From Pseudomonadota bacterium (GTDB taxonomy: Bacteria > SZUA-182 > DTGQ01): a DNA stretch of 45,919 nt. Both the position numbers and the translations under genes were made by a program. Position 1 is the stretch's first letter. Each line of letters starts with the position of its first letter. The notes beneath the pieces are model-generated. The model saw only the letters and a program-made list of their open reading frames with translations, had not been told where the DNA came from and ran no database searches. The stretch spans positions 1 to 45,919 of the forward strand of contig DAOURK010000019.1 in assembly GCA_030625085.1 (NCBI GenBank), read 5' to 3'. This document shows, piece after piece, positions 1 to 38,912 of the stretch.

Positions 1-221
1 TTGCTAGTTAAAATACAATAATGGCCTGACTTTTGTCGTCTTTAGGTATTTAATTTGCCATATCCCGTGGAGGCTACTACTTTAATACTTAATTAAATTA
101 TAATTTTTATTTTCCTCGGATTCCATAATTAGAACTGCTGAATAAGAATATAGTGGTAAAGGTGATTATTTTGTTTTTTAGACTTAAATGCATAATTCTT
201 ATCTCAGTTCCTCACGCTTTT

Positions 222-497
222 TTATGAATGGTTTTCCGATTTTTTCAGGCACGGCTTGCCGCAAGATTTCCTAATTGCCCCTGCGATTTGCTGCTGTGAT
301 TCGACAACTTTTTTATTCTTGAACCGTTGGTTATAATATCGGGCAGTAAAGACAAGTATGATTATTACAGAAATAGTGAAAATAACTTTTGTTGCGGGTT
401 TCCAGACGTCTTTTACCAGATCTGTAAATTTTTTTACAGATTTTCTTTGCAGATTTTGATAGGTTTTCTTTTCATGCTTCTTTTTATTCATTTTCAT
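222..497 (-). CDS. Small single-pass membrane protein, hypothetical; may be an artefact of a decayed gene
   Basis: About 91 residues from the ATG at 497. The open frame extends to a TTG at 527, but that extension reads as a receiver-domain remnant (SIITIETLAMK). The N-terminal half is strongly basic, followed by one hydrophobic segment (KVIFTISVIIILVF) and a basic C-terminus with two Cys. No clear Shine-Dalgarno lies before either start. It belongs to no family I recognise. Because it begins inside a duplicated piece of a broken response regulator, it may be a chance open frame or a chimera. Confidence 0.3.
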   Translation of the reverse strand: MKMNKKKHEKKTYQNLQRKSVKKFTDLVKDVWKPATKVIFTISVIIILVFTARYYNQRFKNKKVVESQQQIAGAIRKSCGKPCLKKSENHS

Positions 498-504
498 AGC
501 TAGG

Positions 505-614
505 GTCTCTATGGTAATTATCGACAATTTATGATCTTCATCTTTTTGATCCAGACTACTCCCTCAAGATCGGCGCTGTCTCTATGGTAATTATCGGCAA
601 TTTATGATCTTCAT
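505..614. repeat. 37-bp direct repeat (505-541 and 578-614)
   Basis: Two copies of a 37-bp segment beginning GTCTCTATGGTAATTATC lie 73 bp apart with one mismatch (CGAC against CGGC). On the minus strand both encode the same receiver-domain strand (DHKL-S/P-IITIET), so this looks like a local duplication inside the decayed response regulator. Confidence 0.75.
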
Positions 615-800
615 TCGTTTTATCAGGGTTTCAAATGCTTTTTTTAAAAATTTGCTGATTTATAGCCTTATCATCTACAACAAGGATACGTTTTCGCCTT
701 ATTTGCTCAAAGACACCTTCAATTTTTTGCCCATCTTCGGGCTGTCTGTTCATTCATATATTCTTTCCGGATACCGATGCCTACTATGTCGGAGATAAAA
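541..800 (-). pseudogene. Remnant of a receiver (response regulator) domain, probably from a hybrid sensor kinase
   Basis: The minus strand of 602-720 reads RILVVDDKAINQQIFKKSI, the classic N-terminus of a CheY-like receiver with its acidic pair. A stop follows, and in the same frame comes DHKLPIITIETA, which resembles the strand around the conserved Thr (LPIIAMTA). The phospho-accepting Asp region between them is missing, so there is an internal deletion. Further upstream on the minus strand, near 760-800, ISDIVGIGIRKEY recalls the end of a PAS domain, so the parent may have been a PAS/receiver hybrid kinase. The plus-strand open frame over this stretch is only its shadow. Confidence 0.6.
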
Positions 801-822
801 AAATAACAAATTTGCCAAACAT

Positions 823-948
823 GATGGTCTCGTAAAAAGTCCAAAATGGGGATATATGTACAACATAACTCCTTGAATTTATGTAACCCAAATTTTCTAA
901 AAACGACTTTTTACGAATGCATCAAACATGACTTTTTACGAGACCATC
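823..948. repeat. Palindromic MITE-like element, family A, copy 1
   Basis: Perfect 19-bp terminal inverted repeats: GATGGTCTCGTAAAAAGTC at 823-841 and its complement at 930-948. An additional, less perfect right arm ends near 922, so this copy may be a nested or extended version of the 101-bp form seen at 12148, 30479 and 36335. The middle shares the GTACAACATAACT/TTGAATTTATGTAA block, inverted relative to the other copies. The rest of 528-1139 holds only the receiver remnant and AT-rich sequence. Confidence 0.85.
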
Positions 949-1139
949 ACTTTATCAAATGCTATAAGTTTTAATCTTACCGCTTCCTTTTCACTGCTTA
1001 CTTTTTATCAGACTATAATATTTCAAATATTAAATTTTCACCTGTCCTCCTTTTTACTATAAGTAATTGTGGAACTATCTGCCGATAGAAGTCCATACTA
1101 TTTTTTATCTTATGATTAACAGGATATAAGGAGAAAATT

Positions 1140-1502
1140 ATGGAAGAAGTAGGAGGAGGAAACGCTTTTGTATTACCCAATTCAAAAATGACCTTCACCT
1201 TTACTGAGTCATATTCCCATGAAGCCTTGGCTGACCTGACTCGTGAAGCGGTAAAAAATCCCGACCTGGCGAAAAGGTTCAGAGAAAATGTTCAAGATGA
1301 ACTGGCCCGAGTAGGCATTCAAGTCACTAATGTGGAGAAGGGAAGGATCAGTGATGAGGATGTCCTCGTGGCCTTGGGGCATCGCGGTGCCGATCTGCAA
1401 TCAATTACCGGTGAGCTGAATAATGTACATGGACAGGCGCCTTTGGTAGCTGTAATTGTAATAATAGCGGTCTTTGGAGGATCGAGTAATCTGGTTGACT
1501 AA
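1140..1502 (+). CDS. RiPP-like precursor peptide candidate with hydrophobic Val/Ile-rich tail
   Basis: 120 residues, preceded by a good Shine-Dalgarno (AAGGAG, 7 bases before the ATG). The first two thirds are an acidic, helical leader-like region (ADLTREAVKNPDLAKRF..DELARVGIQV) resembling Nif11/nitrile-hydratase-type leaders, in which a DPEF/DPDL-like stretch precedes an ALAEAGIEV-like stretch. The last about 21 residues switch to a strongly hydrophobic tail, APLVAVIVIIAVFGGSSN. There is no Cys and little Ser/Thr, so lanthionine or azoline chemistry is unlikely. A B12-binding radical SAM gene follows 230 bp downstream with a repeat between them. The leader type and RiPP role are inference; a short membrane-active peptide is the alternative. 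Confidence 0.5.
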   Translation: MEEVGGGNAFVLPNSKMTFTFTESYSHEALADLTREAVKNPDLAKRFRENVQDELARVGIQVTNVEKGRISDEDVLVALGHRGADLQSITGELNNVHGQAPLVAVIVIIAVFGGSSNLVD

Positions 1503-1542
1503 GGTAATAAAGTTGAGCGAAGTTTTTTATTCTTAAAAGCGA

Positions 1543-1700
1543 TGGGCGGACGCGCTATAGATTTTCAGATATTACATTTCATCCTGTAGCGCAGGGCTTT
1601 AGCCCTGCCAAAATGCAGGGCTAAAGACCTGCGCTACTTCTGCCTGAATATGGATTATGAAATTATTTTTCTAAAAATCTATAGAGGTACGTCCGCTTGA
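1543..1700. repeat. Composite palindromic element, family B, copy 1 (core 1586-1637)
   Basis: The core is GTAGCGCAGGGCTTTAGCCC facing its complement (GGGCTAAAGACCTGCGCTAC). It is nested in a longer imperfect inverted repeat: GCGGACGCGCTATAGATTTT near 1544 pairs with ATCTATAGAGGTACGTCCGC near 1679-1698. The arms (TAGATTTT..ATTTCATAATC) recur next to the core copy at 23005, so the mobile unit is probably the full composite of about 157 bp. It sits between the precursor-like gene and the radical SAM gene. Confidence 0.8.
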
Positions 1701-1731
1701 TTTTATTTAAGGAAAAGGCCACAGTAAAGAG

Positions 1732-2385
1732 ATGACTACAGAATCATGCGTGTTTGTAAGCTGTCCGGTGATGGATGTGATTAATAATAAATTTATCCCG
1801 GTGATGCAAGATGCCTACCGAGACAGTCCGGCCCTTGGAGTATATCTTCTGGCAGCCCAACTTCGGCGTAAAGGTTATTCATGTGAAGTATTTGATTGGG
1901 TGGCTAATCCTCAGATCTCATCTGAAGAAGTGATAAAAAAACTTCTCGAATACAGGGTAGTATTTTTTAGCGCCAATTCATTAAATTGGGCCATTATCCG
2001 AATCCTGGCTCAGCGCCTAAAACAAAATAATCCTCAGATCAAGACCTGTGTGGGCGGCCCTCACGCAACCTATTATCCCGATTCAGTAATTGCCAGTGGA
2101 GGTTTTGATAGTTTTTTTAGAGGAGAGGCTGATAGGTACATCCATCTCATCTATGAAATATTGGCTTTAGGCAAACATCACTCTATCCCCGGGTTCTTCT
2201 GTAAAGAGATAAAAGGGTCTGTGACAAAGGTTCAGGTCAGCACCGAGGATGACCTTGAACAATTTGACTGGCATCCGGCCTATGATCTGATCCCGGCATC
2301 CCAGTACTGTACTATGCCGGTTTTAACCTCTCGGGGATGCAAATATCATTGTACCTTCTGTTCAATTACCGGAAAGAAAAACTGA
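1732..2385 (+). CDS. B12-binding radical SAM protein, N-terminal part, ended by an in-frame TGA
   Basis: 217 residues. The N-terminal about 150 residues form a cobalamin-binding fold (PALGVYLLAAQLRRKGY; later VGGPHATYYPD and FFRGEAD, typical of B12-binding radical SAM enzymes). The [4Fe-4S] motif CKYHCTFC (CxxxCxxC) lies at about residues 203-210, just before the stop. The frame stays open after the TGA at 2383-2385 through to 3120, so the complete enzyme would have about 462 codons, a normal length for the class. Such enzymes perform radical methylations and related chemistry on peptides or lipids; the substrate here is unknown. The upstream precursor-like gene suggests a peptide. It is either a nonsense-mutated pseudogene or a recoded gene. 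Confidence 0.75.
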   Translation: MTTESCVFVSCPVMDVINNKFIPVMQDAYRDSPALGVYLLAAQLRRKGYSCEVFDWVANPQISSEEVIKKLLEYRVVFFSANSLNWAIIRILAQRLKQNNPQIKTCVGGPHATYYPDSVIASGGFDSFFRGEADRYIHLIYEILALGKHHSIPGFFCKEIKGSVTKVQVSTEDDLEQFDWHPAYDLIPASQYCTMPVLTSRGCKYHCTFCSITGKKN

Positions 2386-3120
2386 CGATCCTATTCGGCA
2401 GAAACAACTATAGAACAACTGAGCTTCGCCCTTCCCTACTGTCAAAAAACACGAACAAAAATAATCAATATTGTAGATAATTCTTTTACTACCAACCATA
2501 GCCGGATCGTTGATATATGCAAAGCCTTGCCGGAGGATACATTTCGTCGCAGATTAACCTATGATTCAACCGTAGCGGATCTGCAGAATCCGGAACTTAT
2601 AGAAGCTTTGGAACCCTTTACCAGTGATCTGCTGGTTGGTGCGGAAGTAGTTAATAAAACTGAAGCCAAAAAAATTCATAAACCTGTTTCTCCCGAACTT
2701 ATCAAGGGTGCTGCGCAAAATCTTCAAAGGTTCAATATGAGCAAAAGAACTGACTTTAGCTTTATTATCGGCTTTCCCTGGCATACAAAGGAATATTGTC
2801 TTGAGGCTTTAGATTTTATTACGAATCTCATTCTTGATTATGGGGTAAGGGTCTATCTTCAATGGTATTGGCCAATACCAGGCTCTGTTATTTGGAATAA
2901 TCTTGAAAAGGAGCACAAGGTTAATATTAAAATGGTAGATATTCCCGGATTTTTTCGAAACAGTGATTGGTTTTATCAAATTAGAAATATGGATTCTGAA
3001 GACGCTCGAATAGTAGATGAGAGGATACGGCCTGTTCAGATGCTCCTCACCTTACGCCATGGCTCTCAGGAGCGCCGCCCCTTTGAATATGCTCCCCCTT
3101 TAGTAGAAACGCGGGAATGA
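2386..3120 (+). pseudogene. B12-binding radical SAM protein, C-terminal part in frame after TGA
   Basis: This continues the frame of the preceding fragment. The TGA sits between GKKN and RSYSAETTIEQL, where homologues usually read G-R-R-x-R-x-R-S-P-E. A single base change from CGA (Arg) or TGG (Trp) would restore it. The part contains IVDNSFTTN, which resembles the post-cluster strand, and IIGFPWHTKEYCLEALDFI, the conserved GFPGET-like turn. The tail is diverged. Independent translation could start at a TTG at 2527, but it would lack the FeS motif, so it would not be a radical SAM enzyme alone. Confidence 0.7.
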
Positions 3121-3380
3121 CACCTACCATTTCCCACAAATCAGGGACCTTCTATGTTATGCCCAAAGCCGATATACACCCTGCCCGGGATATAAGACGG
3201 CCTCTTACTGAGCATATTTCTATCAGTCTATTTGACATTAATGTTGAGTCTATTTTATGATTTGGTGAGAGCGTGGAAGGTATCTTTGGATAAACTTAAT
3301 ATTCTTAATTAAGTTTTAAAGTTTGTCTGATTTATTAGCCCAAGATCTTAAATAGCTGAGATGTTTGAGGGGAATACAGC

Positions 3381-3734
3381 ATGAAAAATGGTGCCATTAA
3401 AGAGCAAAAAGCAGGAGAAGTAATCCCTGTCCAAACAATTGAAGCTATTATTCGTACCATTGCTGAAAATTTTTCACCTCAAAAAATAATACTTTTTGGT
3501 TCTTACGCTACAGATCATCCCACACCAGATAGCGACCTTGACCTTTTAATTATCATGAAAACCAAGCTACCGCGGCATAAGAGAGCTGTCCCTCTACGGC
3601 TTTTTTTCCATCCAGTACCTTGCGCTATGGATATTTTTGTGTACACCCCGGAGGAAGTAGCCTATTGGAACGGAGTGGTAAATCATATAGTAACCGAGGC
3701 CTTTCGGAGAGGAAAAGTTGCCTATGAAGAATAA
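3381..3734 (+). CDS. MntA-type minimal nucleotidyltransferase (antitoxin-like)
   Basis: 117 residues with a GAGGGGAA Shine-Dalgarno. The nucleotidyltransferase signature is at about residues 40-60: LFGSYATDHPTPDSDLDLLI, with the GS and paired Asp; a third acidic position is likely the Asp in CAMDIFVYTPEE. In the MntA/HepT family this enzyme adds nucleotides to, and so silences, a HEPN ribonuclease encoded directly downstream. Here the stop overlaps an ATG at 3724 that begins a HEPN-like start, but that partner is destroyed. The antitoxin thus looks orphaned. The family call is firm; its present function is uncertain. Confidence 0.85.
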   Translation: MKNGAIKEQKAGEVIPVQTIEAIIRTIAENFSPQKIILFGSYATDHPTPDSDLDLLIIMKTKLPRHKRAVPLRLFFHPVPCAMDIFVYTPEEVAYWNGVVNHIVTEAFRRGKVAYEE

Positions 3735-3830
3735 GAGTATTGAATTAGCCCTCCAAAAATTCATGGCTTGGTAAGACTTCTTGATATAATTACTCCTACA
3801 TTTCCGGCTATGGGAAGTTACAGAAATTAG
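3724..3830 (+). pseudogene. Residual HEPN (HepT-like) toxin gene with internal deletion
   Basis: The ATG at 3724 overlaps the nucleotidyltransferase stop and reads MKNKSIELALQ, as HEPN partners often begin. A shifted frame from about 3754 then reads PKIHGLVRLLDIITPTFP, resembling the C-terminal KTHDLVxLL helix of HEPN proteins, and stops near 3830. The middle, including the RxxxxH catalytic motif, is absent. Most of the toxin has therefore been lost in a deletion that left both ends. The fragments are short, so the call rests mainly on the match and the position. Confidence 0.5.
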
Positions 3831-4180
3831 ACAGATGCACAAAAATATTTAACGTCTTCTTCATCTCTTTAAGGGGCAAAGCTGCTCTTAAACAGGCCAC
3901 TTTTTTCTTCCATCGCTTACACCAGTACTGAAGGCGCTGATAGGAAAAATCTGTCCGACCGATTGCCTCCACGACTCCCTATAACTTTTGCCTTGGTGTC
4001 AAAATGATAAACAATGCCCTCTACTACTTGCAAAGTCTCACCAATACCCCGGCATAAAAACGAAGGCAATAGACTGAATGTTCCGCCGCAACTCTTACAA
4101 AAATAACGGCTTACCCAAATCATCCATTGCTGACACCATCGACTATAATAGCCATATCCAATAACATTACCCACTTTCAC
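3808..4180 (-). pseudogene. Transposase-like zinc-ribbon fragment, frameshifted
   Basis: The minus strand carries a Cys-pair ribbon, RYFCKSCGGTFSLLPSFL, with an earlier Cys in RWCQQW. This pattern is typical of N-terminal domains of some transposases (RCRxCGKTFSLLPxFL). In another frame downstream it reads DFSYQRLQYWCKRWKKKV, as in helix-rich transposase continuations, ending at a TAG at 3808. There is at least one frameshift and no catalytic DDE core, so it is a decayed fragment. I see no terminal inverted repeats or target duplication. Assignment to a particular IS family is not possible. Confidence 0.45.
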
Positions 4181-4221
4181 CAGCGCAGATAAATTTCGGA
4201 GATGATGAGGAATCTGGTTTT

Positions 4222-4616
4222 ATGGCCTTTTCCTTTTTGGCAATTGCTATGTGCATGCAAGATAGTGATAAAACTGCCCGAAAGGTTGCCAAATGGATTA
4301 TGCAGATTGCGCAGATGGTGGGATTAAGCCGGAACAGAATATCAAAAATTATCGGAAATACCAATTTTAGTGAAATCGATAATTTACTCTCTCAGGACCG
4401 GGCCATGGACTACATAGCCGAACATTACCACCTGGATCTTGCCCTGGATCGGTCCTTGAGTTGGAAGGAAAGGCAAACCAGGAGAAGTTCAAAGAGCTTG
4501 GCTGGGGGCTTCGCACCCAGAGTTGTTTTGATGGCATAGCCAACAATGGAATTGTACGTTTGGGCCTTCATGAAAATTACTTTATAAATTATGGGTATAT
4601 TTCGCCCATTATATAG
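4222..4616 (+). pseudogene. ParB-like helix-turn-helix protein remnant, frameshifted
   Basis: The first frame (to about 4455) reads IAQMVGLSRNRISKIIGNT, a clear helix-turn-helix, then FSEIDNLLSQDRAMDYIAEH. After a frameshift near 4455-4461 the sequence continues as LEGKANQEKFKELGWGLRTQ in another frame, ending in TAG at 4614-4616. I recall the KELGWGLRT phrase from proteins that carry a ParB-like domain and occur near DNA methylases. The N-terminal ParB nuclease-like domain is missing. This is a 5'-truncated, frameshifted relic. The family name is from memory and moderately sure; the HTH is visible. Confidence 0.45.
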
Positions 4617-4679
4617 ATATTTTATGGGTTTGTTTTATAGGTATTGAATATTTTAAGGGTATATGTTAAAATCTGTAGT

Positions 4680-6062
4680 ATGAAAAGATTAGATGAAGAA
4701 ATAATACTGGAATGGTTCAAGAGAGAAATACATAAGCCTTTAGTGGTGAGGGGGGCAATGCAGGTTGGGAAATCCACACTGGTGCGGCAATTTGCAAAAA
4801 ATAATAATATCAATTTACATGAAATTAATTTAGAAAAAAATCCACAGCTTGATCCGGTTTTTAAAAGACAGAATATTAACGAAATTATAAACGAAATTGA
4901 ATTTATTACTCAAAAGGGAAAAATAACTACAGATCAAAGTATTTTATTTCTTGATGAAATCCAATCAATTCCAAGCGCAATACAAAGCCTTAGGTATTTT
5001 TATGAAGAGATGCCTGAATTGCATGTAATAGCTGCAGGTTCACTTCTCGAATTTACGCTTGCCAAACATTCTTTTTCTATGCCAGTAGGAAGGATTGAAT
5101 ATTTATATCTTTATCCTGTTACCTTTTTTGAATACTTAAATGCCGGCGGTGAAAAACCGCTATTAGATATTTTGAAAAATTATAAACTTGACGATTATTT
5201 CCCAATTTCCGCTCATGAAAAACTTCTCAATTATCAACGCAATTATATTTTAGCCGGAGGAATGCCTGAAGCGCTGCAAATATTAGTTTCTGAAAATAAT
5301 TTAGAAAAGGTTTTTAGCATTCAATCTCAAATATTAGAAACATACCGGGATGACTTTGCCAAATATGCCTCAGGAAATGATTTAATAAGAATCCAAAGAA
5401 TTTATGATTTCATTCCTGCTGCTATTGGAGAAAAAATTAAATATGTAAACTTTGATCCCCATACTAAGGCAAGGGAATTAAAGAAGGCTTATGATTTGTT
5501 GGTAAAGGCCGGATTAATTATACCGGCATATCATTCAGATGCTTCAGGAATTCCATTGAACGCGACAAAAAATGAAAAAATATATAAGTCGTTTTTCCTT
5601 GACATTGGTCTTGTTAACAGATCCTGCGGTTTAGAGTATATTTCTTTAGATCATTTAAAAAGCATTAAGTTTATAAATGAGGGAAAACTTGCAGAACAAT
5701 TTATTGCTCAGCACTTATTAGCCATTGGAAGGAAAAATGAAAAACAACATCTATTCTACTGGCTCAGAGAAGGAAGAAGCTCAAATGCAGAAGTAGACTT
5801 TCTTATTCAAAAAAATTCAAAAATAATTCCACTAGAAGTTAAAGCGGGTAAAACCGGCACACTAAAGTCAATTCATCAATTCATATTTCAAAAGGGAAGC
5901 GATTTGGCCATCCGTTTCGATCTTAATCCGCCAAGACTGGAATCAGTTGAAGTAAAAATTAAGCAAGGTAAAGATTTTAAAAGGGTCAGATTTAAATTAT
6001 TATCATTACCTCTTTATATGATAGAAATCCTCCCAAGACTTCTATCACCTTTGATTACTTAA
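4680..6062 (+). CDS. AAA_14/DUF4143-family ATPase
   Basis: 460 residues from the ATG at 4680 (MKRLDEE); an upstream ATG at 4644 adds 12 residues that do not look conserved. Walker A is GAMQVGKS at about residues 26-33; Walker B is ILFLDEIQ near 90, followed by GSLLEF (sensor region). The DUF4143 part includes YLYPVTFFEYL, YILAGGMPEAL and a C-terminal restriction-nuclease-like fold, EVDFLI..IIPLEVKAG. These proteins are widespread in bacteria and archaea, often in many copies, with no settled role; toxin-antitoxin or mobile-element links have been proposed. Reading is intact here. A decayed relative lies at 44761-45059. Confidence 0.9.
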   Translation: MKRLDEEIILEWFKREIHKPLVVRGAMQVGKSTLVRQFAKNNNINLHEINLEKNPQLDPVFKRQNINEIINEIEFITQKGKITTDQSILFLDEIQSIPSAIQSLRYFYEEMPELHVIAAGSLLEFTLAKHSFSMPVGRIEYLYLYPVTFFEYLNAGGEKPLLDILKNYKLDDYFPISAHEKLLNYQRNYILAGGMPEALQILVSENNLEKVFSIQSQILETYRDDFAKYASGNDLIRIQRIYDFIPAAIGEKIKYVNFDPHTKARELKKAYDLLVKAGLIIPAYHSDASGIPLNATKNEKIYKSFFLDIGLVNRSCGLEYISLDHLKSIKFINEGKLAEQFIAQHLLAIGRKNEKQHLFYWLREGRSSNAEVDFLIQKNSKIIPLEVKAGKTGTLKSIHQFIFQKGSDLAIRFDLNPPRLESVEVKIKQGKDFKRVRFKLLSLPLYMIEILPRLLSPLIT

Positions 6063-6272: not shown

Positions 6273-7130
6273 ATGTCATCTACATATCAGGAATTGCGTA
6301 AAATAATAAATCAGAATAAGCGAGAGCTGGGAGAAATAGAAAAGTTTCTTAAGGAAGGAGAAAATTTAGAAAAGGACATAGATAAAAATGCCTATCAAAT
6401 TGAAGATAGACTGAAAAAGGTGGAGGAAAAATTAGGGAAACTTAAAGACTTGGAAGAGTTGCGTGATAATTTAAAAGAAATAAAAGAGTTTGTCGGCGAA
6501 AGAAAAAGACCTCTGGAGCATCCTAAACAAAAACTTAAAAATTATCTGGGGGCAGAGCTGGATCGCAGGTTTAGAGAAATGGGGCGGCATGTTGAAGGCA
6601 ATTTACCAGAGTTGAGAGTAGAATTATTGACCCTGGAGTTTCTCTTATCCCAGAGCCAGGTAAAAATCTGGTATGGACCAAAGATAGAATTGCTGGAGCG
6701 GTCTAAACTGATAGTTGATGACATAGCTAATGCAGTAACAAACATTTATAAGTCTTTGGATAAGGCCGGCTTTGAGGATGAGCAAAGTTTCCTTAAACTC
6801 CTTTTTGAGGCTTATAGCAATTTGATAAAAAAAGAGGGATTGGATCTTGGGGCTAATGTCTCTGTTATTCATTGGCTTGGAGAAGTAGCCTGGCTAAAGC
6901 AGGACAAAAAATTTCTGGCCGACCCCCGACGAGAGCACTTTAAAAACTATAGCCGCACGCAAATGAGCTATGATTTATCCTGCCTTAAACAACGTGAATA
7001 CGACTCCTGCCAATTGCGGTTAGGGATTGCCAGCAGGGAACAGACCAAAAAAAAGGAAGATAATCTCTGGATACCGACGAATCAAAAAGGCGATGGTACT
7101 CATTTTTCCTCAATATGCTTCCGAAAGTAA
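6273..7130 (+). CDS. Coiled-coil protein heading the double-ATPase cassette, unknown function
   Basis: 285 residues from the ATG at 6273, preceded by GGAGG at 6257-6261; an upstream in-frame ATG at 6174 begins inside a dispersed repeat and is rejected. Residues 1-85 are a highly charged heptad-rich coiled coil (ELGEIEKFLKEGENLEKD, RLKKVEEKLGKLKDLEELR). The middle (ELRVELLTLEFLLSQSQVKI) is alpha-helical. The C-terminus is basic and polar. No catalytic motif or membrane segment is visible. It lies immediately before two P-loop ATPases, so it could be a scaffold, DNA-binding or effector partner. That is inference from position. I recognise no family. Confidence 0.75.
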   Translation: MSSTYQELRKIINQNKRELGEIEKFLKEGENLEKDIDKNAYQIEDRLKKVEEKLGKLKDLEELRDNLKEIKEFVGERKRPLEHPKQKLKNYLGAELDRRFREMGRHVEGNLPELRVELLTLEFLLSQSQVKIWYGPKIELLERSKLIVDDIANAVTNIYKSLDKAGFEDEQSFLKLLFEAYSNLIKKEGLDLGANVSVIHWLGEVAWLKQDKKFLADPRREHFKNYSRTQMSYDLSCLKQREYDSCQLRLGIASREQTKKKEDNLWIPTNQKGDGTHFSSICFRK

Positions 7131-7152
7131 AAAAAATAGGATAAAAAATTAC

Positions 7153-8400
7153 ATGAATCATTTGGAAAGAAAAATCGCTCGACGAATCATTGAAACAGTA
7201 GGCTCTTTCGGCACACCCCCCGAATGGGGATTTCAGTATTTTACCGTGGGATTGGAGGATTATCTTAATCTTATTGAGGAAGAATACTTAAAAACCTTTA
7301 TTAAAGAAGACGGCGGCTCAACCTTCAAATTGGTCATAGGCGCGTATGGGGGCGGAAAAACCCATTTTCTCTATAATGTCCGAGAACTGGCCTGGAAGGA
7401 AAATTTTGTAGTCAGCTATGTCAACTTGAGCCAGGAAGAAGCGCCCTTTCATCGACTGGAGCTGGTATACCGGGCTATTATTAATGATCTTATGCATCCT
7501 ATGGGTGTTGAGGATCTCTTGAAAGGCTTAGAAAAAGGGATTGAACCCTTTATAACCAATTGGTATAAAAGGCAGGCTGAAATCTTCCGAAAAGCAGGAC
7601 TTAAGGGCGAGGCCCTGGACCAAAAATTTTCTGACTATGCCAAGGCCATTCAAAGGAATATTGAAAATGTTAATTTTTCCAAAGCTGTTGCCCAGGCATT
7701 TCTTTTCCTACACCAGAAACGCGAAGAGGACTTTCGCAACATTATTCAATGGCTGCGCTTAGAAGGCTATGAGCGAAATGTTCATCGGGAATATGGCTTG
7801 CTGCATCCCATTGATCGAAGCAATTCCTTTTCCATGATCCGCTCGCTCATTCAATGGGTAAGAAATATTGGCTATTCGGGTTTAGTTATTCTCTTTGACG
7901 AGGCAGAGCAAGTACCCAGTCTCAGCAGCAAGCAGCGGGAAATGATGCTCAGCAACTTGCGGGAGATGATCGATGAATGCGGTCACGCCTCTTTCAAGAA
8001 TGTAATGATCTTTTATGCCTTGCCTGATGAAAAAATCTTTGAAGGGGCCTCTAATGTTTATGAGGCCTTGAAACAGCGTATCTCCAGCGTATTTGATTTT
8101 TATAATCCGGCCGGGGTAAAAATCAATCTGGAAGCTATGGATCATGAGCCTATAGGTTTGCTGGAGCAAATTGGTCAAAAGCTCAAAGTTATCTATGAAG
8201 AAGCCTATGAATACTCTTTTAATGGTGATCTCACCCCAATTATTCACCGCCTCGCTCAAGAAGCATATGAGCGCCGATTCGGTGATATAGGTTACATAAG
8301 GCTCTTTGTTCAGGGTATTATAAAGGCCTTTTATCTTATGAGGAAAGAACCAAAGAGAACGATTAATGAAGATCTAACCATAAAACTCCTGGAAGGATAA
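7153..8400 (+). CDS. BrxD/DUF2791-like P-loop ATPase (first of two)
   Basis: 415 residues from the ATG at 7153 (MNHLERKIARRIIETVG); the longer open frame from 7027 overlaps the upstream gene by 100 bases and adds a non-conserved basic tract. Walker A is GAYGGGKTH near residue 62; Walker B is LVILFDEAEQ near 250. A conserved-looking GDIGYIRLFVQGII occurs near the end. This matches the ATP-binding family annotated as BREX-system BrxD (DUF2791), which also occurs outside BREX loci. No pglX methylase, pglZ phosphatase or brxC is visible in this window. It is followed after 11 bp by a second ATPase of the same class, which suggests the two work as a pair. Family call fairly sure, defence role inferred. 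Confidence 0.8.
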   Translation: MNHLERKIARRIIETVGSFGTPPEWGFQYFTVGLEDYLNLIEEEYLKTFIKEDGGSTFKLVIGAYGGGKTHFLYNVRELAWKENFVVSYVNLSQEEAPFHRLELVYRAIINDLMHPMGVEDLLKGLEKGIEPFITNWYKRQAEIFRKAGLKGEALDQKFSDYAKAIQRNIENVNFSKAVAQAFLFLHQKREEDFRNIIQWLRLEGYERNVHREYGLLHPIDRSNSFSMIRSLIQWVRNIGYSGLVILFDEAEQVPSLSSKQREMMLSNLREMIDECGHASFKNVMIFYALPDEKIFEGASNVYEALKQRISSVFDFYNPAGVKINLEAMDHEPIGLLEQIGQKLKVIYEEAYEYSFNGDLTPIIHRLAQEAYERRFGDIGYIRLFVQGIIKAFYLMRKEPKRTINEDLTIKLLEG

Positions 8401-8411
8401 AGGCGCTTATC

Positions 8412-9602
8412 TTGGCTAAACAACCATCAAAGACCAGCCGATTAACAAAAAAAATAGCCCATTTAACCCAACCTCCGAAAGATGCTCGATCGGTTATTGA
8501 GGCCTTCCGTTTGGGGATTGTTCCCATACAGGCTATAAAAGATTGGACCATAGGCCGATCCCATGAAGTGGACACTGTCCGGCGGTGGCTTCAGGATGAA
8601 TCTTCCGGCACTATGGTCATTCGCGGTGAATATGGAAGTGGGAAAAGTCACTTGATTGAGTATCTTCATGCCGGCGGCTTTGAACTCAATTATGCCGTCA
8701 GCCTCGTTGGGATCGACCCTACTGATGCTCAACCGGCCTTCCCTAAGAGGGTTTATCGCCACCTGATCCGCAACCTCTTGTTCCCCTATAAAAACCAACA
8801 TTATACCTTTGCCGAATTATTAACCATGTTGGCTAAAAAACGCAAAAAAAATCCCTTGCCAAACCACCGATTTTTGGGGGGAATCTTAGAAAAAATAAAA
8901 AACAATAAGGACACTCCCGAGATGTGGGCCTGGATAGAAGGCCAGGAGTCAACCTATCGAGAGCAAGGTTGCCTCTACGACCACACTACTGCAGCCAATA
9001 TATACTGTAATATCCTCAGTGGTATAGGTATGCTGGCAGTAAAAGAATTAGGCCTTAAAGGTGTAATGCTTATGTTTGATGAGGCGGAAACATCACGCAC
9101 CTATCGCTATTATTATGAATGGAGCCGAGCGCTTAATTTTTTTAATGCCTTGTCTATGGTAGCCAATGACGAACCGGAATTAACAGATGAAAAGGTGGTA
9201 AAGGGAGAATATTGTTACTCCGGCAAAGAGACCGGGCTGATATATTCCGGCCATTGCCCTATCCCTTACCTGTATGAGATACCAAGCTTTCTGAAAATAG
9301 TTTTTGCCTTCACCCCTGACTATAAGCTCAGTCTTTTGGAAGATTATAATATTTATGAGATAGAATTAGAATCATTGCCGCCCCAGGAGACGAAATATCT
9401 TTTTTACAAATTCATAGATTTATATGAGAAGGTATATCAAATAAAAATACATCCGGTGTACCGGCGGCGATTCTTTGAATTGATAAAGACTAACAGCAAT
9501 CAGTCTACGCGAAAATTTATCAAGGCCATGGTAGAAAGCCTTGATTTTTATCGCTTTTATCCCACCAAAAACCCTGATAGCATCTTATCCCCTATCTACT
9601 AA
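8412..9602 (+). CDS. BrxD/DUF2791-like P-loop ATPase (second of two)
   Basis: 396 residues. The start is a TTG at 8412, placed just after the upstream stop with AAAGGCG as a plausible ribosome site; no in-frame ATG lies nearby. Walker A is GEYGSGKSH at about residue 73; Walker B is GVMLMFDEAE near 218. It has GRSHEVDTVRRWL before the P-loop, as in BREX-type ATP-binding proteins, and a region between Walker B and the sensor part (SRTYRYYYEWSRALNFF onward) that the first ATPase lacks. It is translationally close-coupled to the first ATPase. Its stop abuts the stop of the convergent minus-strand gene with no spacer, so any further cassette gene on this side is absent or was lost. Confidence 0.8.
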   Translation: MAKQPSKTSRLTKKIAHLTQPPKDARSVIEAFRLGIVPIQAIKDWTIGRSHEVDTVRRWLQDESSGTMVIRGEYGSGKSHLIEYLHAGGFELNYAVSLVGIDPTDAQPAFPKRVYRHLIRNLLFPYKNQHYTFAELLTMLAKKRKKNPLPNHRFLGGILEKIKNNKDTPEMWAWIEGQESTYREQGCLYDHTTAANIYCNILSGIGMLAVKELGLKGVMLMFDEAETSRTYRYYYEWSRALNFFNALSMVANDEPELTDEKVVKGEYCYSGKETGLIYSGHCPIPYLYEIPSFLKIVFAFTPDYKLSLLEDYNIYEIELESLPPQETKYLFYKFIDLYEKVYQIKIHPVYRRRFFELIKTNSNQSTRKFIKAMVESLDFYRFYPTKNPDSILSPIY

Positions 9603-11156
9603 CTAAAAGACATAATTAATGGATAGCGATAAGGCATTTTCATCCATCAACCTGAACTCTCCGGAGAGGATGAGATTCTTTTGCCAATTATACCCTGTGC
9701 CGATTCTACATCCAATACTGTCTTTCCCATCAAAATCCAGGGGATTAGCTCCAGATGATTCAAAACTCCCGGAGGTTTGGGCATATAAAAGTCCGAAATA
9801 GGGTGAAAATTTATTAAAGCCTTTATAAATTGTATCTGCCGCCAGTTGCAATTCTGTTATATCAACAGTGGCAGTTCCTTTCTGGTTTCCAATGGGAACA
9901 TCAAATTCGGGAGCATAATGCAAAAAACCCAAATTGACATTAACCCCTAGATTATAGGCAGATAAATTATATACATTCGAACTGACTCCGGCGCCGTATG
10001 CAAGAGACATAGCCTTTTCAACTTGATAATCATAAGATCCCGCATTTACAAGATTATCAAATCCCATACTGATTGATCCAAGATTTACATACATTTGAGT
10101 ATCTTTTAGATTAAAAACATTCAAAAAATCAGGGGCATAACCAATCTGGGCAATTGCCCTTTTGGAGGTTATTTTGTTATCCACCCCATTCTCTTCAAAG
10201 GAAACATCTTTTTGCGTAACAAATTTACTATCAAGTCCAAACCGAAATTTTTCAATAAACTCGACCGGCCCTTTTTCTGAAGCTTTCGGTTCTTTATCGG
10301 ATCGAAAAACTTTCTTTGGTAAAGAAACTACCTTGGCCAAAGCAACTTTGGGCATCTTTAACCATTTTTTCAATTTCCCTTCTTTGGGTTGAGACTGTTC
10401 CGACGGTTGGGTTGGCTGCGGGGCTCTTTCAACTTTGGTGATTTCTGTTCGCTCCCTTTCTCTAGAGGAAAGCTCTTCCAATTTCCTTTTGGCAATTTGC
10501 GAATCAGGATCTACTTTCAAAACCTTTCTATATTCACCCATTGCCTCTGAAGGCCTTTCCAGCAACTCGTAAAGAACAGCTAACCGCATATAGGCGTCTA
10601 CCATATTGGGCTGTAATTGGGAGGCTTTTTTATATCCGGCTATAGCTTTGCCTTTTTCCCCCATTTGATCATAGCTGAATGCCATATTGTAATGCAGATC
10701 AGCATCCTCAGGGTATATCTCCAAGGCTTTTTTGAATTGTTTCAAGGCCAAATTATATTCTTTTCGGACACCATAAATTGTCGCCAAATTAAACCGCGCT
10801 TCATAGAATAAAGGATCATTTCTAAGGGCCGCCTGATAACTCTCTATTGCGTCACCCAGGTACCCCATTCGCTGCTCAGCCACTGCGAGATAATAATAAG
10901 CATCGATGCTTCCAGGGTCTAAAATCAAGGCCTTTTTTAGCTCAATAATGGCAGACTTATTTTCCTGATTGCGCAGTTTTTCAATTCCGGCTGAAAGATA
11001 GGATTCAGTATCTGCACCTTCCTCTAATATCTCCTCATGTTCAGGATTGGGCTCTTCACCCATCGGGTTTTTAGAAATAAAAATATTTTTTCCTAATGCA
11101 CAAGAAACAAAGAACAGAGAAATTAAAATTAATGTCATCAATTTTACGTTTTTCAT
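9603..11156 (-). CDS. TPR lipoprotein with C-terminal outer-membrane beta-barrel-like domain
   Basis: 517 residues. A lipoprotein signal peptide ends in the lipobox FVSC-A at about residue 19. Residues about 50-235 contain five or more TPR units (for example AIIELKKALILDPGSIDAYY, ALKQFKKALEIYPEDADLHY). A Pro/Lys-rich linker (about 235-290) leads to about 220 residues of alternating hydrophobic strands ending LSLSINYVF, with the terminal Phe expected for Bam-inserted barrels. It therefore appears to be an outer-membrane-anchored periplasmic TPR scaffold joined to a small barrel. It stands alone with nothing co-directional nearby, and ends back to back with the ATPase cassette. Specific function unknown. 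Confidence 0.75.
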   Translation of the reverse strand: MKNVKLMTLILISLFFVSCALGKNIFISKNPMGEEPNPEHEEILEEGADTESYLSAGIEKLRNQENKSAIIELKKALILDPGSIDAYYYLAVAEQRMGYLGDAIESYQAALRNDPLFYEARFNLATIYGVRKEYNLALKQFKKALEIYPEDADLHYNMAFSYDQMGEKGKAIAGYKKASQLQPNMVDAYMRLAVLYELLERPSEAMGEYRKVLKVDPDSQIAKRKLEELSSRERERTEITKVERAPQPTQPSEQSQPKEGKLKKWLKMPKVALAKVVSLPKKVFRSDKEPKASEKGPVEFIEKFRFGLDSKFVTQKDVSFEENGVDNKITSKRAIAQIGYAPDFLNVFNLKDTQMYVNLGSISMGFDNLVNAGSYDYQVEKAMSLAYGAGVSSNVYNLSAYNLGVNVNLGFLHYAPEFDVPIGNQKGTATVDITELQLAADTIYKGFNKFSPYFGLLYAQTSGSFESSGANPLDFDGKDSIGCRIGTGYNWQKNLILSGEFRLMDENALSLSINYVF

Positions 11157-11602
11157 AAAATCCCCCTCAAGGATATTAATCTGGCTAAGGGTTTAACGAT
11201 AAATATTTAGTAGATAAAAGCGCGAAGATCAAATTATTTTGCCTATATTCTATTATTTTTTAACCCTTTTATCAAGGACAAATATAAATATAAATGCTAT
11301 TTCAAAAAAAAGGCATTATAATTCAATTTTATCCAAATAATACAGATTGTCAATGTACACTTAGCAATTCTCATTTTGACCCATATTGAAGTTGGTAAAT
11401 GTTCGCTGAAGCCATATAGGGAAGCCAATTCCTATGCTTTTCATTGACGTCTCTTAAAAAAGATGTTATAAATTTTACATATATAAAAAAATTATTAACA
11501 AATTGATTATTTTTCTTAAATCCAGCCTAATTTTTCAGGCGCTTAGTTCTAAATTTTGTGTTTTTTTCGTTCCGGCTTGACCGGATTAGGGTAGGACAAA
11601 AA
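11157..11602. other. Intergenic gap, divergent promoter region with family C repeat
   Basis: 446 bp between the divergent TPR lipoprotein and YjbQ genes, so it should hold promoters for both. It is AT-rich. A motif GCAATTCTCATTTTGAC at 11364-11380 recurs with one change at 16862-16878. The shortened family C copy occupies 11541-11590. I see no ORF with coding character. Confidence 0.5.
11541..11590 (+). repeat. Dispersed repeat, family C, copy 2 (internally deleted)
   Basis: GCTTAGTTCTAAATTTTGTG joined directly to GTTCCGGCTTGACCGGATTA. The central GATAGAAAATTTTAAAACC segment of the other copies is missing. It ends 13 bp before the YjbQ start codon, and the bases just after it (AGGAC) may serve as ribosome site. 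Confidence 0.75.
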
Positions 11603-12027: not shown

Positions 12028-12107
12028 AATTACGAATTACGAATTACGAATTACGAATTACGAATTATGAATTATGAATTATGAATTATGAATTATGAAT
12101 TATGAAT
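12028..12107. repeat. Heptanucleotide tandem repeat (AATTACG, then AATTATG)
   Basis: About eleven 7-bp units directly after the yjbQ stop: about five of AATTACG followed by about six of AATTATG. The clean switch of one base halfway suggests two rounds of slippage expansion. A relative with AATTACA then AATTATG lies at 38966-39020. Confidence 0.9.
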
Positions 12108-16917: not shown

Positions 16918-16988
16918 TAGCGCAGGGCTTAGCCCTGCCGAACTCCCATAAAAAATGTATTTTTCGCAGGGCTAAAGCCCTGCGCTAC
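16918..16988. repeat. Family B palindrome, copy 2
   Basis: TAGCGCAGGGCTTAGCCCTG facing CAGGGCTAAAGCCCTGCGCT about 30 bp apart. It occupies the 16859-17224 gap between recN and the kinase operon. The gap holds no ORF of its own. Confidence 0.9.
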
Positions 16989-21635: not shown

Positions 21636-21721
21636 AATTGTAATCCCTTTTTTAAATTCTGTGTAACTTTAAGGAAAATAACAAATACAAGAATTATAAA
21701 AAGAGTAGGTTGGGAGTCTTC

Positions 21722-22786
21722 GTGAGTGAAAAATCAAAAAAAATCCTAATAACAGGAAATGAAGCTATAACCGAAGGGGCTATTGCGGCAGGGTGCCTAT
21801 TTTATTTTGGCTATCCGATTACCCCGCAAAATGAAATCCCGGCCTTTATGGCTAAAAAATTACCAATGATTGGCGGATGCTTTATACAAGCAGAAAGTGA
21901 GATTGCAGCCATAAATATGGTTTATGGCGCGGCAGCCGCAGGGGTCAGGAGCATGACTACATCTTCCAGCCCCGGCATCAGTCTTAAACAGGAAGGAATT
22001 TCCTTCCTTGCAGGAGCGGAATTACCTGCAGTTATCGTTAATATCTGTCGCGGTGGCCCTGGCTTAGGCAACATTGCAGGTTCTCAGGGAGATTATTTTC
22101 AGGCCACAAAAGGTGGCGGCCATGGGGATTATCGTACCATAGTTCTCGGTCCATCTTCAATACAAGAGCTATATGATCTAACCTTTCTGGCTTTTGATCT
22201 GGCTGACATATATCGGACCCCTGTTCTAATTTTAGCTGATGGCGTTTTAGGGCAGATGATGGAACCCCTCGCTTTTGAAAACGGTCAAAAACCTAAAATG
22301 AATTTACCTGAAAAAACCTGGGCCTTGACTGGAGCTAAAAATCGCCCTCCGAATATAATTAAGTCTCTTTATATGGGAGAAGGGGAACTGGAAGAAAAAA
22401 ATTGGCTTTTATACCAAAAATATCAAAAAATTCAAAACAATGAAATTAGGTACAAAGAATACCATGCTCAAGATGCCGAACTCCTTTTGGTGGCTTATGG
22501 CCTTTCGGCAAGAATTTGTAAGGGAGTTGTCAATAAGGCCAGAAAGCAGGGTATTGCCCTGGGACTCTTTCAACCAGTCACCCTCTATCCATTCCCTTCT
22601 TCCGCCCTGGCATTCAGAGCCGGTAAAATTGGTAAAGTTCTTACCATTGAAATGAATATGGGACAAATGGTTGAGGATGTCAAATTGGCAACAGGGTCAA
22701 GCAGTGAAAATTTTTTTTATGGTCGGCCGGGAGGTGGAATTCCTTCTGATGAAGAAATTTTTCAATCCTGTCGGAAATTGTTATAA
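21722..22786 (+). CDS. korA: 2-oxoacid:ferredoxin oxidoreductase, alpha subunit
   Basis: 354 residues from a GTG at 21722, with GGGAG placed about seven bases before it; an upstream TTG at 21710 is less well placed. Family landmarks: GNEAITEGAIAAGCLFYFGYPITPQNEI, where YPITP is diagnostic, then QAESEIAAINMVYGAAAAGV, TTSSSPGISLKQEG, NICRGGPGLGNI and a C-terminal EMNMGQMVEDVKLA. It pairs with the TPP-binding beta subunit. It is not fused to the gamma subunit, which has its own gene. A 354-bp non-coding gap with repeats separates it from korB, which is unusual inside this operon. Confidence 0.92.
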   Translation: MSEKSKKILITGNEAITEGAIAAGCLFYFGYPITPQNEIPAFMAKKLPMIGGCFIQAESEIAAINMVYGAAAAGVRSMTTSSSPGISLKQEGISFLAGAELPAVIVNICRGGPGLGNIAGSQGDYFQATKGGGHGDYRTIVLGPSSIQELYDLTFLAFDLADIYRTPVLILADGVLGQMMEPLAFENGQKPKMNLPEKTWALTGAKNRPPNIIKSLYMGEGELEEKNWLLYQKYQKIQNNEIRYKEYHAQDAELLLVAYGLSARICKGVVNKARKQGIALGLFQPVTLYPFPSSALAFRAGKIGKVLTIEMNMGQMVEDVKLATGSSSENFFYGRPGGGIPSDEEIFQSCRKLL

Positions 22787-22842
22787 TTAATTGTGTAAGC
22801 GTTCAGACCCCATAGGCCAGCTCTAAATCAAGGAATTATATT

Positions 22843-23093
22843 TGAACCACAAAGACACAAAGATCACAGAGAGAGAAAATATTTTTTTCTAACCCTCTAT
22901 TTTTTTTATCATTTTGTCTTTTTTGTATTTTGTGGTTTACTATAAGGGTCTGAATAATTACCATAGATTTTCAGTTAATTATTTCATAATCAATTCATGC
23001 AATATAGCGCAGGGCTTTAGCCTTTAAAAAACTAAAAAATTTATTTTTCATGTGTGTGCTTTTCTTTGTGATCTTTGTGTCTTTGTGGTTCAA
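22843..23093. repeat. Inverted ACCACAAAGACACAAAGATC repeats with a family B half-copy inside korA-korB gap
   Basis: GAACCACAAAGACACAAAGA at 22842-22861 pairs with TCTTTGTGTCTTTGTGGTTC at 23074-23093. Between them are TTTGTATTTTGTGGTTTACT near 22922-22941, a partial arm of composite family B (TAGATTTTCAG..ATTTCATAATC), and half of its core (TAGCGCAGGGCTTTAGCC, 23005-23022). The gap 22787-23140 therefore consists almost wholly of repeats. No ORF with coding character is seen. Confidence 0.85.
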
Positions 23094-23140
23094 TATAGTT
23101 TTACAAAAAAAATCAGAGAGAGGTTAGGGAGAATTTTTAG

Positions 23141-23881
23141 TTGAAAGAGATCTTTTCCAGACCAAAATCACTCAAAAATGTTCCATTCAGATATTGCCCC
23201 GGTTGCCATCATGGTTTAATTCACCGATTAATCGGCGAGACAATCGATTTTTTCGATATTCAGGATAAAACTATCGGCGTTGCTCCGGTTGGTTGTGCAG
23301 TATTTGCCTATGACTATTTTAATATCGATATGCTTGAAGTTGCCCATGGTCGACCTCCTGCAGCTGTTACCGGAATGAAACGAGCCAGGCCTGAAAATAT
23401 TATCTTTAGCTATCAAGGAGATGGAGATCTTGCCTCTATTGGAATAGCTGAAATCATTCATACAGCGAATCGTGGAGAAAACATTACTGTTATTTTTGTT
23501 AATAATGCTGTTTACGGAATGACTGGAGGCCAAATGGCGCCCACCACCCTAACTGGTCAGGTGACGAAAACAACTCCTTATGGACGTGATAATCGTGTTG
23601 ATGGATTCCCTTTACGAATATGCGAACTGTTGGCAACTCTGGACGGGCCTGCCTATATTGAACGAGTTGCCGTTAATAATCCTAAAAATATTAAAAAAGC
23701 TGCAAGAGCCATCCGAAAAGCTTTTCAAGCGCAGATAGATAATCTTGGATTCAGTCTGGTAGAAGTTTTATCCGCCTGTCCAACTAACTGGAAAATGTCC
23801 CCCCTTGAGTCGAATCAGTGGATCGAAGATACCATGAGTAATACATTTCCATTAGGGGTATATAAGAATATTTCATCATAA
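23141..23881 (+). CDS. korB: 2-oxoacid:ferredoxin oxidoreductase, beta (TPP-binding) subunit
   Basis: 246 residues from a TTG at 23141 with an AGGGAG site about 11 bases before. CPGCHHGLIHRLI is the family N-terminal Cys motif. The thiamin diphosphate site is GDGDLASIGIAEIIH through VIFVNNAVYGMTGGQ (GDGx..NN pattern). APVGCAVF and HGRPPAAVTGMKRA are also typical. Together with korA, korC and korD it makes an anaerobic 2-oxoacid oxidoreductase that links central carbon to ferredoxin. A short C-terminal extension is normal. The gamma subunit follows after 38 bp. Confidence 0.93.
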   Translation: MKEIFSRPKSLKNVPFRYCPGCHHGLIHRLIGETIDFFDIQDKTIGVAPVGCAVFAYDYFNIDMLEVAHGRPPAAVTGMKRARPENIIFSYQGDGDLASIGIAEIIHTANRGENITVIFVNNAVYGMTGGQMAPTTLTGQVTKTTPYGRDNRVDGFPLRICELLATLDGPAYIERVAVNNPKNIKKAARAIRKAFQAQIDNLGFSLVEVLSACPTNWKMSPLESNQWIEDTMSNTFPLGVYKNISS

Positions 23882-23919
23882 GCCAATTACCATACTTTAT
23901 TGGCTTAACCGAGGTTTAG

Positions 23920-24483
23920 ATGGCTGAAAAAAAAATATGTATAGCCGGTTCCGGTGGACAAGGAGTATTACTCCTGAGTAAAATTTTGGCCACTGCCGGT
24001 ATGCTGGATAAAAAAAATGTGACCTTGATTTCCTCTTATGGCGCCGAAATGCGAGGAGGAGTAATTAACTGTACGGTTATCATATCCGATGAAGACATTG
24101 GTTCTCCTATTGCAAAAAACCCGGATATCCTCATTGCTATGAATAATTATGCTTTACAAAAATATGGTCCAAAGATTATCTCCGGAGGATTACTCATTGC
24201 CAATGAGTCTTTAATTCATGATTCTCAATTTTTTGGTAACAATATAAAAGCTTCTTTTCTGCCGGCTACAGAAATCGCCAAAACATCATCCGGCCATACT
24301 AAATCGACCAATATGATCATGCTGGGAGCTTTTTTACATAAAACAAAACTTTTGTCCTTACAAAACATCCAAGAGAGTATTAAATTACTTCTCCCTGCAA
24401 AAAATCAAAATCTCATTTCCTTAAATCTTGAAGCCTTACATGAAGGAATGGGGTATTTTAAAGAGGAAATATTCTATGATTAG
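23920..24483 (+). CDS. korC: 2-oxoacid:ferredoxin oxidoreductase, gamma subunit
   Basis: 187 residues. The family begins with GSGGQGVLLLSKILATAGM at about residues 9-27, followed by SSYGAEMRGG and VIISDEDIGSP; PDILIAMNNYALQKY is typical mid-protein. This subunit binds near the CoA site and completes the enzyme with korA, korB and korD. The ATG of the next gene lies inside its last codons (24476), so the acetyltransferase is translationally coupled. Confidence 0.92.
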   Translation: MAEKKICIAGSGGQGVLLLSKILATAGMLDKKNVTLISSYGAEMRGGVINCTVIISDEDIGSPIAKNPDILIAMNNYALQKYGPKIISGGLLIANESLIHDSQFFGNNIKASFLPATEIAKTSSGHTKSTNMIMLGAFLHKTKLLSLQNIQESIKLLLPAKNQNLISLNLEALHEGMGYFKEEIFYD

Positions 24484-24922
24484 TCGACCTAAAGCCGGCG
24501 AAGCAAAATCAATTCAAAAGTTAATAAATTTATATGCAAACAATGGCTTACTCCCACTTTCCTTACACGAAATCTATGAAAGAATTCGGGATTTTTTTAT
24601 CTATAAAATCGAATCAAAAATTGTAGGAGCTGCTTCACTTCATATAATTTGGGAAGATCTTGCTGAATTTCGTTCTCTGGCAGTTCAAGCCGATTATCGA
24701 CATCAAGGGATCGGTAAAGCTCTTGTCATGAGCGCCTTGGATGAAGCTAGAGATTTACAGCTTAAAAAAGTGTTTCTTCTTACCAATCAAAAAGAATATT
24801 TCGAAAAAATGGGGTTTCAATTGATTGATAAATCAGAACTTCCTCATAAAGTTTGGTCTGACTGCATCAAATGTATTAAATTCCCGGACTGTGATGAAGT
24901 AGCTATGATTTTAAAGCTCTGA
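24476..24922 (+). CDS. Short ArgA-like GNAT N-acetyltransferase
   Basis: 148 residues from the ATG at 24476 (GAGGAAA just before); a longer frame from 24428 lies inside korC. GNAT motif A is LAVQADYRHQGIGKALV at about residues 68-84 (Q-x-x-G-x-A). The C-terminal YFEKMGFQLIDKSELPHKVW, then SDCIKCIKFPDCDEVAMI, matches short N-acetylglutamate synthases known from anaerobes, which begin arginine synthesis from glutamate and acetyl-CoA. The kor neighbour would supply the acyl-CoA/2-oxoglutarate link; that is inference. The Cys cluster CIKC..C may bind metal. Confidence 0.8.
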   Translation: MISRPKAGEAKSIQKLINLYANNGLLPLSLHEIYERIRDFFIYKIESKIVGAASLHIIWEDLAEFRSLAVQADYRHQGIGKALVMSALDEARDLQLKKVFLLTNQKEYFEKMGFQLIDKSELPHKVWSDCIKCIKFPDCDEVAMILKL

Positions 24923-25654: not shown

Positions 25655-25722
25655 CGTAGGGCTTAAACCCTGCAAAAAATCTTTTTTCTGGAGCATTAAG
25701 CAGGGTTAAAGCCCTGCACTAC
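25655..25722. repeat. Family B palindrome, copy 4
   Basis: CGTAGGGCTTAAACCCTGC facing GCAGGGTTAAAGCCCTGCAC. The upstream flank (TATAGTTTTCCC..ATTTCACA) resembles the arm of the composite at 1543-1700. It lies between the small ORFs and the convergent end of the hybrid kinase gene. Confidence 0.8.
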
Positions 25723-33594: not shown

Positions 33595-33617
33595 GTAGCG
33601 CAGGGCTTCAGCCCTGC
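33595..33617. repeat. Family B half-palindrome, copy 5
   Basis: GTAGCGCAGGGCTTCAGCCC only; the facing arm is absent. Confidence 0.75.
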
Positions 33618-35678: not shown

Positions 35679-35736
35679 TTTGCTTTGCTTTGCTTTGGTT
35701 TGCTTTGGTTTGGTTTGGTTTGGTTTGGTTTGGTTT
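35679..35736. repeat. Pentanucleotide tandem repeat TTTGC/TTTGG
   Basis: About eleven 5-bp units, first mostly CTTTG-type then seven or so GGTTT-type, ending exactly at the stop codon of the minus-strand RNase H-like gene (stop at 35737-35739). A one-base switch in the unit again suggests stepwise expansion. Confidence 0.9.
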
Positions 35737-38839: not shown

Positions 38840-38912
38840 GCGCAGGGCTTTATTAGCCCTGCAAAAAAAACGCCTTTTTGGGGGATTAAGCAAGGCTAAA
38901 GCCCTGCACTAC
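38840..38912. repeat. Family B palindrome, copy 7
   Basis: CGCAGGGCTTTATTAGCCCT facing AAGGCTAAAGCCCTGCACTA. The gap 38805-39173 also holds a heptamer tandem (38966-39020) and the short element at 39027-39068. Confidence 0.8.

Follow-up and report, generated by a model that had tools for sequence, protein, structure and literature searches.

A probable two-gene RiPP cassette pairing an NHLP-like peptide gene with a B12-binding radical SAM gene

The DNA analysed here (the window, a stretch of 45,919 nucleotides) belongs to a 4.94-Mb source genome in 247 contigs and carries, close to its start, a gene for a 120-residue peptide (1140-1502, + strand) followed by a gene for a B12-binding radical SAM enzyme (1732-3120, + strand). 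We propose that the two genes constitute a minimal RiPP cassette, in which the peptide has an NHLP-like leader and the enzyme modifies its Val/Ile/Ala core, and we assign this reading a probability of about 0.7. The proposal is supported by the conservation of the pair in related genomes, by a parallel pair in another phylum (genome G063), and by a profile match between the leader of the peptide and leaders of the NHLP kind.

The peptide gene and its surroundings

The peptide gene opens with an ATG six bases downstream of a ribosome-binding site, AAGGAG (1128-1133, + strand), and shares a GGAGAA...ATG start context with its homologues in two related genomes, G003 and G001. Its product, much as the first-pass annotation had described it, comprises a conserved N-terminal segment, a helical, NHLP-like leader and a short hydrophobic tail (PLVAVIVIIAVFGG, also given as APLVAVIVIIAVFGG), and its C-terminal end reads ...HGQAPLVAVIVIIAVFGGSSNLVD. 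The putative core, A-P-LVAVIVIIAVF-GGSSNLVD (1437-1502, + strand), comes after a GQ[A/G] motif found in all relatives, and the hydrophobic stretch of the tail spans 11 residues. The acidic PAPEDEQ-type end of the close relatives is absent from the window peptide. No GG/GA-type cleavage motif was found ahead of the core in the window peptide, whose predicted fold is of low confidence (pLDDT 59) and matches nothing in the PDB. Codon-position patterns point to purifying selection on both the peptide and the enzyme genes, with the changes in the peptide gene concentrated at third codon positions, and every genome that carries the peptide gene has a single copy of it. Judged by its homologues, these third-position changes and its one copy per genome, the 1140-1502 frame is a genuine gene.

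Among 60 relatives searched, peptide homologues were found in two genomes, G003 (62% identity) and G001 (57% identity), both of the same family, and the fourth genome of this family, G002, lacks the peptide. A profile of the three sequences matched only the window genome, G003 and G001 among nine genomes of the phylum, and gave no further convincing homologue, only two extra weak matches, in 386 genomes. Of these two, the one in G275 was rejected as a chance match to a peptidyl-prolyl-isomerase-like protein. The G001 locus, which was the only one recovered when contigs were scanned with narrow patterns, lies on a metagenome-assembled record (JAILZY010000059.1, 'bacterium isolate HOT.CON.50'). 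Nothing was found when the peptide profile was compared with viral contigs or the peptide with plasmids, and the enzyme likewise found nothing in plasmids and only generic relatives (21-25%) in viral contigs.

G003 and G001 both have an intact orthologous B12-dependent radical SAM (B12-rSAM) gene directly after the peptide gene and in the same orientation, and the gap between the two genes, 229 bp in the window, is 168 and 274 bp in these two relatives. The G003 pair lies at L004:9627-10022 and 10191-11570. The first-pass annotation had reckoned with the possibility that homologues of the peptide never occur beside radical SAM genes; the two genes are adjacent in each of the three peptide-bearing genomes. 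The genome-neighbourhood comparison which it had proposed finds the pair kept in the window, G003 and G001 with mostly different flanks: nucleotidyltransferase and AAA genes in the window, arginine/lysine biosynthesis genes (argH/lysA/dap) in G001, and a NirJ1/AhbC-like heme gene together with oxoacid oxidoreductase genes in G003. The background is partly common, in that the oxoacid oxidoreductase genes of G003 have counterparts in the window at 21710-24922, about 19-22 kb downstream. The SPASM radical SAM gene adjoining the G003 cassette was considered as a second maturase and rejected, being NirJ1/AhbC-like and assigned to heme biosynthesis.

These observations bear on whether the two genes are chance neighbours, that is, a small membrane or stress protein gene lying by an unrelated radical SAM gene. 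The short hydrophobic segment of the peptide and its sub-threshold matches to Band_7 and TetR_C would fit such a reading, but 11 residues are short for a membrane span, the two matches are far under cut-off and place the peptide in no known membrane or stress family (a possibility the first-pass annotation had also allowed for), and the adjacency is kept in three genomes with a parallel pair in a fourth. We consider chance adjacency very improbable and already largely refuted.

Neither the downstream part of the window nor loci L004 and L005 showed a recognisable proteusin epimerase or other poy-type maturase; the upstream side is cut by the contig end in the window, where the contig starts 1,139 bp before the peptide gene, and in G001. 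Neither a linked protease nor an exporter was seen beside the cassette. The earlier statement that no epimerase, dehydratase or protease gene lies nearby holds on the downstream side, and on the upstream side it extends to the 1,139 bp present. The window genome (G000) and G063 yielded no C39 peptidase, and the C39 proteins of G001 and G003 are unlinked to the cassette and, where classified, of the general type I secretion type.

A palindromic repeat element of 154 bp (1544-1697; folding z = -9.6), which the first-pass annotation did not mention, lies between the two genes, with inverted arms at 1586-1608 and 1615-1637. The core of this dispersed repeat, GTAGCGCAGG..CCCTGC (also given as GTAGCGCAGGGCTTTAGCCCTGC), has six matches in the window where none is expected, located at 1586-1637, 16966-16988, 25700-25722, 33595-33617 and 38890-38912; a search of Rfam with positions 1-6000 gave no match. 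A second palindromic element (822-949), upstream of the peptide gene, has perfect 20-nt arms (TGATGGTCTCGTAAAAAGTC and GACTTTTTACGAGACCATCA) with 88 nt between them, and a 47-nt direct repeat pair, 89% identical and spaced 73 bp, is located near the contig start (505-624). Elsewhere in the window, two adjacent genes (7027-9602) encode PF10923 ATPase domains of the BrxC/BrxD type (E 2e-49 and 1.9e-19) and match the PADLOC models BrxD and SngB; the rest of a BREX system was not recognised nearby, and the two genes may be a small defence locus. At the other end of the window, the start of a secreted protein (45491-45919) with about 14 copies of the 8-residue SPYGQQSY, corresponding to a 24-bp tandem repeat with 91% matches, is truncated where the contig stops. 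Further secreted proteins rich in Tyr/Pro or Tyr/Gly are encoded at 29935-30372 of the window, L004:6117-7064 and L005:3793-4551. In the short tandem arrays at 12028-12107 and 35679-35736, AATTATG is repeated 11 times and TTTGG 11.6 times, respectively.

The leader and a second case in another phylum

The window peptide had no match in NCBIfam at E<=10 and passed no cut-off of the curated NHLP, Nif11 or TOMM leader models in HMM scans, so that the leader search suggested in the first-pass annotation returned only matches below curated cut-offs. The G003 homologue matches the NHLP-type peptide family TIGR04351 best in NCBIfam, weakly and under the cut-off (E 0.0064). When the three-sequence family alignment was compared by hhalign with an NHLP/Os17 profile, built from 12 NF038399-type leaders of which some are under the cut-off of that family, residues 28-70 (1221-1349, + strand) aligned in register with a score of 28.2. 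The best of 200 column shuffles scored 18.2 and the reversed alignment 14.2; the single family sequences scored 21.6, 26.0 and 23.9, and 135 chunks taken from other real proteins of these loci reached at most 18.2. Because the family scores exceed those of the shuffles and of the real protein chunks, a remote relationship of the window leader to NHLP/Os17 leaders is supported at the profile level.

A relative of the enzyme was found by profile in G063, a genome of another phylum (E 4e-80, 31% identity), and 45 bp downstream of it lies a gene for a 113-aa peptide (L024:1858-2199) with a Val/Ala-rich tail ending ...DGQAKKILAVATGASIVVAVSTPAFPKGEEDEKSQGKGK. The top NCBIfam match of this peptide is NF038399, 'Os1348 family NHLP clan protein' (E 3.1e-5), followed by PF14407 Frankia_peptide (0.001) and TIGR04509, an NHLP-related RiPP peptide family (0.01), with the curated cut-offs of all three left unpassed. 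Since it is the sole NF038399 match in the 3.7-Mb genome, its placement beside the enzyme by chance is unlikely. The direct comparison of the window peptide family (A1) with the single G063 peptide is weak taken alone. All four peptides (window, G003, G001 and G063) have a Cys-free tail of the Val/Ile/Ala type after the GQ[A/G] step. Counting against a RiPP cassette are the curated RiPP models that are not passed, a weaker enzyme relative in G048 (E 6e-49) which no such peptide adjoins, and the finding of only four cassettes; a search of the phyla to which G063 and G048 belong gave no more relatives of the enzyme. As a separate observation, a typical NHLP-like peptide gene in G249 (L061:1342-1623) overlaps a B12-rSAM-like open reading frame, an independent example of such pairing.

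Alternatively, the small protein might serve as partner to, or regulate, a B12-rSAM enzyme whose own substrate is a small molecule, a lipid or a protein. Its N-terminal part is highly conserved and its tail fairly so, and neither a cleavage site nor an exporter was found, all of which would agree with such a role. However, an NHLP-type leader followed by a variable hydrophobic tail, and the independent pairing of the enzyme with an NHLP-clan peptide in G063, argue for a precursor instead, and we regard a partner or regulator as decidedly unlikely.

The enzyme and its interrupted copy in the window

In the RiPP cassette that we favour, the second gene is, as the first-pass annotation had recognised, that of a B12-binding radical SAM enzyme. 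Residues 25-134 (1804-2133, + strand) are recognised by PF02310 as a B12-binding domain (E 5.8e-15), and the CxxxCxxC cysteines C203, C207 and C210 (2338-2361, + strand) are invariant in four proteins. The enzymes of G003 and G063 exceed the cut-offs of both PF02310 and PF04055, and the features of class B (B12-dependent) radical SAM enzymes, namely an N-terminal cobalamin domain, a radical SAM domain and CxxxCxxC, are all present. None of the NCBIfam cut-offs was reached by the enzyme from the window, G003 or G063. Against TIGR03975 (RiPP C-methyltransferase; cut-off 281.85 bits), the N-terminal part of the window enzyme scored 37.5 bits, the G003 enzyme 49.7 and the G063 enzyme 56.8, and the best model for the G003 enzyme was ApyD NF050148 (89 bits, cut-off 750), followed by HpnJ and TIGR04013.

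The structure predicted from a four-sequence alignment, with Trp at the position of the internal TGA (pLDDT 64.5), matches the folds of AprD4, OxsB, CysS, TokK and TsrM; the lowest E-value is that of AprD4, and CysS, TokK and TsrM are roughly as near. At the sequence level, similarity within the PDB was limited to AprD4 and a single radical SAM protein that carries no functional name. As far as the predicted model goes, the fold match identifies the enzyme as a B12-rSAM member and does not extend to its reaction.

The window gene is 66% identical to its intact G003 and G001 orthologues, and an in-frame TGA (2383-2385, + strand), located at a codon that specifies Trp in all relatives, cuts it after 217 codons, between the CxxxCxxC motif and most of the radical SAM domain. 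The frame then stays open through 3120. The first-pass annotation had called the locus minimal or degraded; degradation was right as a hint, with this TGA going unmentioned. A selenoprotein was rejected, as the site is Trp rather than Cys in the relatives, and so was recoding of TGA as Trp, as TGA ends 7 of the 27 long genes of the window and the other radical SAM genes lack an internal TGA. Since the TGA is the sole lesion of the gene and codon constraint is alike on both sides of it, the window copy looks either recently inactivated or affected by an assembly or sequencing error. We think that the window cassette is probably inactivated. A fully functional copy, with the TGA arising from a sequencing or assembly error or being read through, would be compatible with the RiPP reading, and the single lesion and the even codon constraint are in line with it; one error would be enough, given that 190 of the 4158 possible single changes in the gene create a stop. 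We nevertheless find it somewhat doubtful, as the 11 other B12-rSAM matches of the window genome have no internal stop, the ordinary use of TGA as a stop argues against general recoding, the repeat element parts the two genes, and the end of the precursor is shorter than in the relatives.

Proposed chemistry and comparison with known systems

If the two genes form a RiPP cassette, the peptide would presumably be the substrate of the enzyme, with the NHLP-like part of the 120-aa precursor serving as the leader and the short Val/Ile/Ala core being modified by the B12-rSAM enzyme. C-methylation would be the likeliest chemistry: methylcobalamin and a 5'-deoxyadenosyl radical would be used to methylate unactivated side-chain carbons of Val and Ile, yielding tert-leucine-like residues, and an unlinked protease would free a very hydrophobic, possibly membrane-active peptide.

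The cassette could also be a RiPP system with another B12-rSAM chemistry, such as crosslinking, desaturation or hydroxylation of the core. The enzyme falls outside TIGR03975 and far under all methyltransferase equivalog cut-offs, its only PDB sequence likenesses are those to AprD4 and the unnamed radical SAM protein, and among its fold matches the top one, AprD4, is a dehydratase, a non-methylating B12-rSAM member, and OxsB is not known as a peptide methyltransferase. Yet CysS, TokK and TsrM are about as near by fold, and thioether chemistry on Cys is excluded because the core has no Cys. Moreover, most B12-rSAM enzymes known to modify the side chains of RiPPs are C-methyltransferases (PMC11285071, PMC10635010): PoyC methylates Ile3 and Val5, 10 and 21 of polytheonamide at C-beta (PMC11285071), and ApyD methylates the C-beta of Tyr in another RiPP (PMC10635010). 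A different chemistry is therefore unlikely in our view. The C-methylated RiPP locus put forward in the first-pass annotation is correct in its broad lines and partly supported: it gains from the conserved pair and the NHLP-clan peptide of G063, and loses from the TIGR03975 scores (37-57 against 282 bits), the AprD4 fold and the nonsense codon.

More tentatively, and at slightly less than even odds, we suggest that these cassettes represent a hitherto undescribed two-gene RiPP class with an NHLP-like leader, a short, near-pure Val/Ile/Ala core, a single B12-rSAM enzyme from a subfamily outside TIGR03975, and a hydrophobic product rich in tert-leucine. The best-known examples of iterative C-methylation are found in large clusters that also introduce numerous further modifications. 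If the proposal is true, one peptide and one enzyme would make a very small system for iterative C-methylation of unactivated carbons, and poorly studied bacterial lineages would contribute an uncharacterised subfamily of B12-rSAM enzymes for which a candidate substrate is evident.

Among known systems, the B12-binding/radical SAM family TIGR04013, to which to our knowledge no function has been assigned, has a similar domain order, although the enzyme scores 72 bits against a cut-off of 251. ApyD of aminopyruvatide biosynthesis (NF050148) is the top NCBIfam model of the intact enzyme and is a precedent for C-beta methylation of a RiPP, but its 750-bit cut-off is not reached, and no MNIO, P450 or RRE protein gene was recognised beside the cassettes. 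The Os17/Os1348 family of the NHLP clan (NF038399, PF14407) shares the leader pattern, with the difference that the G063 peptide reaches 24 bits against a 40-bit cut-off and the window peptide is detected through profile-profile comparison alone and not by direct HMM. Polytheonamide-type proteusins (PoyA with PoyB/PoyC) differ in several respects: the window core has only about 20 residues; no epimerase, dehydratase or N-methyltransferase is seen here, with the upstream side cut by the contig end; the enzyme is far under TIGR03975; and the motif is CxxxCxxC in the window enzyme but Cx7Cx2C in the description of PoyC. What they have in common with the window cassette is an NHLP-type leader, a Val/Ile-rich core and a B12-dependent radical SAM partner.
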